Positions 12,107 to 13,522 of a stretch of DNA of 64,000 nucleotides are shown piece after piece; position 1 is the first letter of the stretch; the number at the start of each line of letters is the position of its first letter. The position numbers and the translations under genes are program-made. This DNA comes from Nitrosospira briensis (lineage in GTDB: Bacteria; Pseudomonadota; Gammaproteobacteria; Burkholderiales; Nitrosomonadaceae). Under the pieces are notes generated by a model that did no database searches, was not told the origin of the DNA, and saw nothing but the letters and a program-made list of their open reading frames with translations. Location of the stretch: positions 62,001 through 126,000 of the forward strand of contig NZ_FOVJ01000005.1 of assembly GCF_900115125.1 (NCBI RefSeq). The letters are read 5' to 3'.

Positions 12107-12109
12107 CGC

Positions 12110-12137
12110 TTGATTCCAGCGAAATCAAGTCTATAAT
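12110..12137 (+). promoter_or_regulatory. Sigma-70 promoter of the ornithine decarboxylase unit, with internal inverted repeat
   Basis: TTGATT (12110-12115), a 16-bp spacer and a perfect TATAAT (12132-12137). CTTGATT 12109-12115 and AATCAAG 12123-12129 form a 7-7-7 inverted repeat that covers the -35 box and most of the spacer, so a bound protein would block polymerase. Transcription would start near 12144. Confidence 0.7.
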
Positions 12138-12184
12138 CCGCTTTTTTTCGGTACGCACAATTTCATAGAGAACAGGAGGTCATC

Positions 12185-12250
12185 ATGACAAGCAAAGCAA
12201 ACTATTTCGTCCCCGCTGATCTGGTAAATATCCATACTCCCGTAACGTAG
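12185..12250 (+). CDS. 21-residue leader peptide upstream of the ornithine decarboxylase
   Basis: ATG at 12185 follows a perfect SD (AGGAGG 12174-12179, 5 bases away), and the frame ends with TAG at 12248-12250. The peptide reads MTSKANYFVPADL followed by VNIHTPVT. The stop lies 26 bases before the likely decarboxylase start. The SD is stronger than that of the decarboxylase itself. CCTCCT at 12253-12258, just after the stop, is complementary to AGGAGG, so a long-range helix could hide the leader SD. A leader-peptide role in polyamine control is inference. It does not resemble enterobacterial SpeFL. Confidence 0.55.
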   Translation: MTSKANYFVPADLVNIHTPVT

Positions 12251-12276
12251 CGCCTCCTACAGAAAGGATGACTCTC

Positions 12277-13452
12277 ATGCAAATGCGTACCACCGCTCTA
12301 CGGCGCAACGTAGAAGCCGACGAAATATTCGACACCCACCCCGAAGTCACTCTCGATTTTGAACATGTCCAGGCAGCCCTGAAAAAAGGCTATAGCAAGC
12401 CGTTCCTGCTGGTTGACACCAACATTGTTCGAAACAAAGCCCGCCGCTTCAAAACAGCCATGCCAAAGGTGCAGCCGCATTATGCGGTGAAGGCGAATCC
12501 CGATCCGCGCGTGCTGCGAACCATGATCGAGGAAAGCGTCGGATTTGAAATTGCCTCCATTTCGGAGCTGGACCTTCTGCTCGGCCTTGGAGTGCCCGCA
12601 GCGGATATTTATTACAGTAATCCCATGAAGTCGCGCGCTTATCTGGAATATGCGGCGTCCAAGGGCGTGGAGTGGTATGTGCTGGACAGTGTCGAGGAAC
12701 TGCGCAAGATCGTGAGCGTCAAACCGGATGCAAAAATGTATTTGCGCATTGATACCCCCAACATAGGGAGCGATTGGCCATTGGCGGGCAAATTCGGTAC
12801 GCATACCGCCGAGATCGAGGGCATCGTTAATGAAGCCGCTAAACTCAAGGCAGATCTTGCGGGAGTGACATTCCACGTGGGTTCGCAATGCCGTAATCCG
12901 CAGAACTGGCGGGTGGGCATCGAGCGGGCAAAAAAAGTTTTTGCGGATATGCGCCAGGTTGGGTTGACGCCGCGTTTGCTCAATATCGGTGGCGGCTATC
13001 CCGTGCGTCATGTCAAGCCCATTCCATCAATAGAGATAATAGCGGAAGTCGTAAATGCCGCGATTGCAGATCTGCCGGAGGACATTCGGGTCATGGCCGA
13101 ACCAGGACGCTACCTTGTATCCGATGCGGCGTATTTCGTTTGCCGCGTGGTCGGCACGGCAACGCGTAACGGCAAACGCTGGATGTATTGGGACGCGGGT
13201 GTATTTGGCGGCGTAATCGAAGTCACGGAGGGCTTGCGGTACGAAATTCTTTCCGATCGCATGGGGCAGAATATCCCCTGGTCCATTGCCGGGCCAACCT
13301 GCGACTCGGTGGACATTCTCATGCGGGACGAAATGCTGCCGGAAGATATCGAGGAAGGGGACTTCATCTACATTCCGAATGCCGGCGCTTATACCACTGC
13401 GTACGCCAGCAATTTCAACGGGTTTCCACTACCGGATGTGGTGGTTTTGTAA
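12277..13452 (+). CDS. Ornithine decarboxylase, PLP fold-type III (ODC/DAP decarboxylase family)
   Basis: It converts ornithine to putrescine, with PLP as cofactor. The start at 12277 (391 residues) is preferred because AAGGA at 12264-12268 is 8 bases upstream; ATG at 12268 is in frame but overlaps that SD. Motifs: PLP lysine in PHYAVKANPDPRVL, HVGSQ, phosphate-binding GGGYP, EPGRYLVSD, and GPTCDSVD with the catalytic Cys typical of decarboxylases of this fold. Length matches bacterial short ODCs of the eukaryotic-like type. A strong promoter and a 21-codon leader ORF precede it and an intrinsic terminator follows, so it forms its own unit. Lysine activity cannot be excluded. Confidence 0.9.
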   Translation: MQMRTTALRRNVEADEIFDTHPEVTLDFEHVQAALKKGYSKPFLLVDTNIVRNKARRFKTAMPKVQPHYAVKANPDPRVLRTMIEESVGFEIASISELDLLLGLGVPAADIYYSNPMKSRAYLEYAASKGVEWYVLDSVEELRKIVSVKPDAKMYLRIDTPNIGSDWPLAGKFGTHTAEIEGIVNEAAKLKADLAGVTFHVGSQCRNPQNWRVGIERAKKVFADMRQVGLTPRLLNIGGGYPVRHVKPIPSIEIIAEVVNAAIADLPEDIRVMAEPGRYLVSDAAYFVCRVVGTATRNGKRWMYWDAGVFGGVIEVTEGLRYEILSDRMGQNIPWSIAGPTCDSVDILMRDEMLPEDIEEGDFIYIPNAGAYTTAYASNFNGFPLPDVVVL

Positions 13453-13484: not shown

Positions 13485-13522
13485 GGCGGAACCCAAACGG
13501 CGGGTTCCGCCATTATTTTTTC
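13485..13522 (+). terminator. Intrinsic terminator of the ornithine decarboxylase gene
   Basis: A perfect 10-bp GC-rich stem (GGCGGAACCC 13485-13494 / GGGTTCCGCC 13502-13511) with a 7-base loop is followed by ATTATTTTTT. It lies 32 bases after the stop and separates this unit from the convergent folA. Confidence 0.9.

Follow-up and report, generated by a model that had tools for sequence, protein, structure and literature searches.

A conserved short leader ORF ending in P-x-T-UAG upstream of a fold-III ornithine-decarboxylase-like gene of Nitrosospira and its relatives: a candidate termination-arrest peptide

Organization of the locus

Within the window, i.e. the whole stretch of 64,000 nt of Nitrosospira briensis DNA that was analyzed here, the gene for an ornithine-decarboxylase-like enzyme is preceded by a promoter and a short, separate leader ORF. 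The following features were assigned:

12110..12137, + strand: sigma-70-type promoter TTGATT-16 nt-TATAAT (-35 TTGATT at 12110-12115, -10 TATAAT at 12132-12137), read from the sequence and by promoter scoring
12109..12129, no strand: 7-7-7 inverted repeat over the -35 and spacer (left arm CTTGATT 12109-12115, spacer CCAGCGA 12116-12122, right arm AATCAAG 12123-12129), perfect here, exact dyad not conserved
12174..12184, + strand: extended Shine-Dalgarno sequence of the leader, AGGAGGTCATC, containing AGGAGG at 12174-12179
12185..12250, + strand: leader ORF of 21 amino acids, MTSKANYFVPADLVNIHTPVT, then UAG (ATG at 12185, TAG at 12248-12250)
12233..12250, + strand: conserved C-terminal module H-[ITV]-P-[VE]-T-stop with Thr codon ACG and stop UAG
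12251..12258, + strand: C after the stop and pyrimidine tract, holding CCTCCT at 12253-12258
12264..12268, + strand: decarboxylase Shine-Dalgarno sequence AAGGA, separated by 13 nt from the leader stop
12277..13452, + strand: fold-III PLP-dependent ornithine-decarboxylase-like enzyme, assigned by homology, start ATG at 12277

The motifs named in a preliminary description of this DNA (dyad, TATAAT, AGGAGG, 21-codon ORF, CCTCCT and AAGGA) are all present. An alternative in-frame ATG of the decarboxylase at 12268 overlaps its Shine-Dalgarno (SD) sequence. Past the gene, an inverted repeat rich in G+C, with a T-rich run behind it, was read by eye at 13485-13521; it resembles an intrinsic terminator, hence the decarboxylase gene is probably monocistronic.

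The orthologue set comprised 79 named records with readable upstream DNA, which together with the window gave 80 usable loci; L066 was left out of the 80 named loci, its record beginning inside the gene. A promoter-like match was found in 79 of these 80 loci, with TATAAT in 78 and TTGATT in 75. The dyad that the preliminary description had placed over the promoter is perfect in the window but is not conserved as such, being exact in only 10 of the 80 loci including the window, and it was therefore rejected as an operator. Among the 75 loci with CTTGATT, the right arm shows at most 4 mismatches in its 7 positions throughout and 0-2 mismatches in 43, so that the promoter spacer is conserved in part though the dyad is inexact. 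On the minus strand, the dyad 12109-12129 together with CGTTTTTTTT scores as a terminator-like hairpin; read on the plus strand, this A-tract may instead be an UP element of the promoter.

The decarboxylase and its place in polyamine metabolism

The best solved relative of the encoded enzyme is the lysine/ornithine decarboxylase 2plj (E 8.4e-65), followed mostly by eukaryotic ornithine decarboxylases. The protein falls far short of the lysA cut-off of NCBIfam (185.9 of 297.9 bits) and of that for speA, and its GPTCDSVD aligns with the same motif of 2plj. It combines the homology and the GPTCDS-type motif of fold-III ornithine decarboxylases, not those of lysA; ornithine rather than lysine is the likely substrate judging from these alignments. 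The window comes from a Nitrosomonadaceae genome close to Nitrosospira/Nitrosovibrio, the enzyme being 86-93% identical in the first 21 named records. In the genome that contains the window, neither an AdoMet decarboxylase (PF02675) nor an arginine decarboxylase (speA) was found above cut-off, and the enzyme may therefore be the main source of putrescine. In a survey of nitrifier genomes, speC for ornithine decarboxylase is reported absent (PMC10753782). The fold-III gene is present in Nitrosospira and Nitrosomonas records, in a list made up of matches by construction, and the reported absence of speC is probably explained by the different fold of the enzyme.

The leader ORF is protein-coding and under purifying selection

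The leader ORF with its UAG stop and P-x-T end occurs in 80 of 80 usable loci, always with a length of 21 codons (L074 counted from its Shine-Dalgarno-preceded ATG), the last three residues being PET in 51 and PVT in 29 loci. The leaders correspond to 64 distinct 66-nt ORFs, which all keep the proline and the threonine. For 30 pairs without shared sequence, the pN/pS ratio was 0.30 in frame vs 1.18 and 0.83 in the other frames, and the synonymous share of the changes was 0.48 compared with a permutation mean of 0.28 (reached by 0 of 500 permutations). Codons 2-11 gave a pN/pS of 0.50 and codons 12-21 of 0.15, therefore the constraint is concentrated at the C-terminus of the leader. At the level of sequence evolution, the comparison thus shows a protein-coding ORF on which purifying selection acts, most strongly towards the C-terminus, and the existence of a leader peptide gene is near certain. 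The earlier proposal that the decarboxylase is linked to a translated leader peptide is hence supported, and the conservation of the ORF in related species, the lack of which had been named as a refutation, reaches a very high level.

The extended SD sequence AGGAGGTCATC was found in 70 of the 80 loci. The mean duplex energy, calculated with an assumed 16S tail sequence, was -13.3 kcal/mol for the leader and -7.2 kcal/mol for the decarboxylase; the leader SD is the stronger one in 77 of the 80 loci, the exceptions being L023, L070 and L077. This difference and the short distance to the gene would also be expected under plain translational coupling, in which the leader serves as an entry ORF for re-initiation at the weak decarboxylase start and the peptide senses nothing. 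We regard such a purely mechanical role as rather unlikely, because it leaves the C-terminal conservation (the pN/pS of 0.15) and the near-invariant P-x-T, ACG and UAG unexplained.

Conservation of the leader stop site at the nucleotide level

The constraint at the leader end extends to individual nucleotides. In 74 of the 80 loci, the leader ends with the sense codon ACG, which makes up 18% of the Thr codons in the same decarboxylase genes; ACC and ACA also occur at this place. The stop is UAG in all 80 leaders vs 21 of 80 decarboxylase genes and 3 of 43 long ORFs of the window, and it is followed by C in 68 of 80 leaders vs 14 of 80 decarboxylase stops. The proline codon is variable among the 64 distinct ORFs (CCT 34, CCC 22, CCA 7, CCG 1). 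Positions 4-7 after the stop are 81-96% pyrimidine in the 80 loci. The conserved P-site codon, stop codon and next base are what a termination arrest would be expected to need.

The distance from the leader stop to the decarboxylase AUG is 18-31 nt with a mode of 22 in the 80 loci, and the decarboxylase SD begins 7-13 nt past the leader stop in 78 of them. Readthrough or frameshifting into the decarboxylase was also considered; it is argued against by the gap not being constant modulo 3. A further explanation would be that the peptide is released and acts in trans as a small protein, for instance by binding the decarboxylase. The amino acid conservation would suit such a function, but the peptides have only 13-24 residues, the nucleotides of the stop site (ACG, UAG and the next C) are themselves conserved, the distance to the gene is narrow and every pattern match lies before the decarboxylase gene, making a function in trans highly improbable.

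RNA structure of the leader region

The preliminary description had seen a possible translational switch in the pairing of the leader AGGAGG with CCTCCT behind the leader stop, which both exist in the window. The window contains each hexamer 10 times on its plus strand. Among the 80 loci, CCTCCT occurs in 3 and CCTCC in 15, all of them Nitrosospira-like. Three stretches of the window fold like shuffled sequences (z -0.06, 0.88 and -0.12), and the helix is absent from the minimum-energy structure in both folds containing AGGAGG. In a close set of 23 sequences, 91% of the helix cells could pair, but no pair was changed on both sides. In the larger alignment of 77 sequences, the helix had 80.2% of its cells paired (reached by 0 of 500 shuffles) and also exceeded slid versions, and its covariation score was 0.289 vs 0.252, reached by 1 of 500 shuffles. 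Two-sided changes were found in 5 cells (reached by 3 of 500) and affected 2 pairs (reached by 101 of 500); four of these cells belong to rows that lack AGGAGG at the columns concerned (L070, L077, L079 and L080) and the fifth to L037, which has AGGGGG. The 68 rows with intact AGGAGG contain zero compensatory changes, and about 81% of their cells still pair because the pyrimidine tract after the stop is general. Hence, covarying SD/CCTCCT pairs were found neither in the close set nor in the intact rows, and the proposed switch was not borne out. Despite the complement in the window and the better-than-shuffled helix, it appears scarcely credible given the rarity of CCTCCT, the empty consensus fold and the shuffle-like folding of the window. 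From the alignment, the conserved downstream feature is a pyrimidine tract and not an exact complement of AGGAGG; this tract may bind the adjacent purine-rich SD sequence or ribosomal protein S1.

Structure prediction and comparison with Rfam, which the preliminary description had recommended, also did not support an RNA structure as the switch. The RNAalifold consensus of the 77 leaders contained no pairs, and no Rfam family reached its gathering score in the leader, where one chance-level lncRNA match was obtained on the other strand (E 3.9); in the window, only three tRNAs were identified by Rfam. The consensus of the close set showed a weak structure of -3.85 kcal/mol, in which 3 of 20 pairs had two-sided changes, and two of these three belong to a small hairpin between the pyrimidine tract and the decarboxylase SD.

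This neighbourhood of tract and SD makes an activating arrest conceivable, in which ornithine would stall the ribosome on top of the pyrimidine tract, so that the decarboxylase SD becomes free or the mRNA is protected, comparable to SpeFL and TnaC, which switch on their genes. The predicted unpaired probability of the decarboxylase SD rises from 0.36 in the free RNA to 0.49 with a ribosome on the leader stop. Masking of the pyrimidine tract by the ribosome raises the predicted SD accessibility by more than 0.2 in 27 of 77 loci; these folding models would fit activation and not repression in those loci. Furthermore, ornithine is reported to raise speF expression via ORF34/SpeFL (PMC6386406, PMC8429421). 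Nevertheless, we consider an activating arrest quite unlikely for the present leader, because 18-31 nt are too short to hold a stalled and an initiating ribosome together, judged from generally known footprints, and also too short for a Rho-dependent region, for which the E. coli speFL-speF gap offers 257 nt.

Distribution in the order and beyond

Using an enzyme cut-off of E<=1e-90, the decarboxylase was found in 65 of 349 genomes sampled across the order of the window. Upstream DNA was examined for 64 of them, including the genome of the window (G000) and G033, which is identical to L109 of the orthologue set, whereas G338 was left out since its sequence is cut at the start. Leader classes were assigned by a script seeking ATG starts within about 330 nt upstream. 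A P-x-T leader was present in 34 of the 64 enzyme-bearing genomes, belonging to 10 of 18 group-coded families. Among the 30 genomes without the full element, 8 keep the strong start GGAGGTCATCATG with at most 2 mismatches and 22 show neither part. Outside the family, the leader varies between 13 and 24 residues with its end retained; the shortest, MTADQFNLHIPVT in G558, still has LHIPVT and the stop, and the longest is MTSHALTCAHTFGVPPFLQHTPVT in G475. The order-level leaders all end with UAG except that of G025, which has UAA. Among the 32 order-level leaders located by pattern, the last codon was ACG in 25 and the base after the stop was C in 21.

Searches with the element patterns gave one match each in 34 of 61 genomes of relatives and in 14 of 349 genomes of the order. 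All 34 and all 14 matches lie upstream of the decarboxylase gene; 13 of the latter do so directly, and in G427 a masked or unread stretch lies in between. G427 was counted as leader-positive from this pattern match and was too short for the tree. In the tree of the N-terminal part of the enzyme, the leader label changes 6 times compared with 20.7 times for shuffled labels, which is consistent with one old origin followed by several losses, although gains may also have occurred. Among the short ORFs in the 300 nt before class-sample matches (E<=1e-45) other than the gene of the window, no P-x-T leader was seen. A phylum-wide pattern matched 0 of 249 genomes, but this pattern also misses the HTPVT leader of the window itself. 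The leader region was not found on plasmids.

In G371, G610 and G639, the upstream ORF has no P-x-T end and extends into an overlap with the decarboxylase start. Coupling to the gene may thus retain its value even without an arrest-like end. The three belong to the 8 genomes that keep the ORF start without P-x-T, and these cases speak for translational coupling as introduced above.

A model for the function of the leader peptide

The leader ORF is short, is encoded in cis and has its C-terminus and stop conserved, as is expected of the functional class of termination-arrest leader peptides. Collectively, we cautiously favour as the probable reading a termination-arrest leader peptide that stalls at P-x-T-UAG and represses the decarboxylase in cis, where arrest, ligand and sign are deduced from sequence comparison. 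According to this model, the strong leader SD would load most ribosomes onto the leader. With the chain ending in H-I-P-[V/E]-T in the tunnel, the P site would hold peptidyl-tRNA(Thr) and the A site UAG with its following C, such that release by RF1 would be slow and would be slowed further by a small molecule. Given the usual footprint, a ribosome waiting at UAG would cover about 9-10 nt past the stop, up to the decarboxylase SD, and block initiation at the AUG 18-31 nt downstream, or prevent re-initiation after termination, such that the decarboxylase would be turned down in the presence of the signal. Repression by the arrested ribosome is favoured because a ribosome held at UAG and another one initiating at the decarboxylase would hardly fit together, again judged from generally known footprints.

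Control of the decarboxylase by polyamines or ornithine is plausible. The most natural signal would be the product putrescine or another polyamine acting by feedback, with ornithine as an alternative. Since the peptides have only 13-24 residues, sensing would have to rely on the part of the tunnel close to the peptidyl-transferase centre and could not involve a distinct N-terminal sensor domain. The UAA stop in G025, the ACC and ACA codons, the three loci whose leader SD is not the stronger one, the 27 of 77 loci with predicted gain of SD accessibility and the 30 of 64 genomes without full element count against the arrest model. As a more far-reaching and rather tentative idea, these leaders might form an undescribed family of minimal arrest peptides of 13-24 residues, with which the ribosome senses a polyamine near the peptidyl-transferase centre, parks at UAG and represses ornithine decarboxylase.

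Relation to known leader peptides and RNA elements

The leader may work like SpeFL, yet on sequence grounds it is not a member of SpeFL, the speF RNA (RF00518) or the odc1 uORF motif. The preliminary description was right in separating it from SpeFL: it has 21 amino acids, and HIRR is missing from all 64 distinct ORFs. For four leader peptides (window, L052, L035 and L071), neither Pfam, PF10940 included, nor NCBIfam yielded a match at E values up to 10, a search of weak power with such short queries. SpeFL (ORF34, PF10940/DUF2618) of gamma-proteobacteria is likewise encoded close to where the mRNA of an ornithine decarboxylase begins, and it ends with UAG in E. coli. It is described to cause termination arrest by inhibiting RF1 (PMC8429421), as proposed for the leader here. 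In contrast, SpeFL comprises 34 amino acids with an HIRRT core instead of 13-24 amino acids ending in HIPVT or HIPET. In Salmonella, the stop is UGA, and ORF34 is reported to act jointly with Rho and with RNA structure, the leader there measuring about 516 nt (PMC6386406). This layout does not fit the present locus because 18-31 nt separate leader stop and gene, compared with the 257 nt in E. coli. Moreover, SpeF has 732 codons vs about 391 amino acids of the fold-III enzyme and is a different type of enzyme.

TnaC acts via RF2 with tryptophan as ligand and activates its operon. It shares with the proposed mechanism the termination arrest, the proline at the end (Pro24) and the release-factor inhibition (PMC8429421), but has another sequence. 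The odc1 motif (uORF-25-1) of alpha-proteobacteria, too, consists of a short uORF that is conserved and directly adjoins a gene with the annotation ornithine decarboxylase. It is described as an 11-amino-acid uORF whose UUG start lies 2 nt from that of the main ORF, with hairpin and pseudoknot (PMC8632094), whereas the leader here starts with AUG, has 21 amino acids, is an ORF of its own with 18-31 nt between its stop and the gene and lacks a consensus RNA structure. The speF RNA resembles the leader as a cis element before COG0019-type ornithine decarboxylases in alpha-proteobacteria, and in vitro no binding to it was recorded for ornithine, putrescine or spermidine (PMC1273637). It differs in being a structured RNA, while no Rfam family matches the leader region. 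RF00518 gave no match in the genome of the window, and among the SD-preceded short ORFs listed at 20 speF loci none resembles HIPVT.

In the open-access literature searched, which mostly leaves aside subscription journals, no description of the leader was found. In eukaryotes, polyamine-responsive uORFs such as AMD1 MAGDIS and that of the antizyme inhibitor repress polyamine genes by a ribosome stalled on the short uORF. They differ from the leader here by the eukaryotic scanning mechanism. If the more far-reaching idea of polyamine sensing is true, the leader would represent a bacterial counterpart of these uORFs, opposite in sign to SpeFL. To our knowledge, few metabolite-sensing arrest peptides are known. 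The present leader is short, widely conserved and located at a polyamine gene of bacteria responsible for nitrification. Should polyamines be its signal, the leader would demonstrate how a nascent chain reads a molecule that is abundant in every ribosome preparation, and no more than about twelve residues would have to be dissected. In addition, it offers good access to a decarboxylase gene that was reported absent as speC in the nitrifier survey (PMC10753782).

Eight relatives (L118, L157, L160, L174, L176, L185, L186 and L187) retain the start GGAGGTCATCATG, with at most 2 mismatches, without the P-x-T end, and in two of them the ORF has 7 codons and encodes MTRARNY or MTRTRNY. They look like naturally occurring stages in which the leader decays or changes its function.
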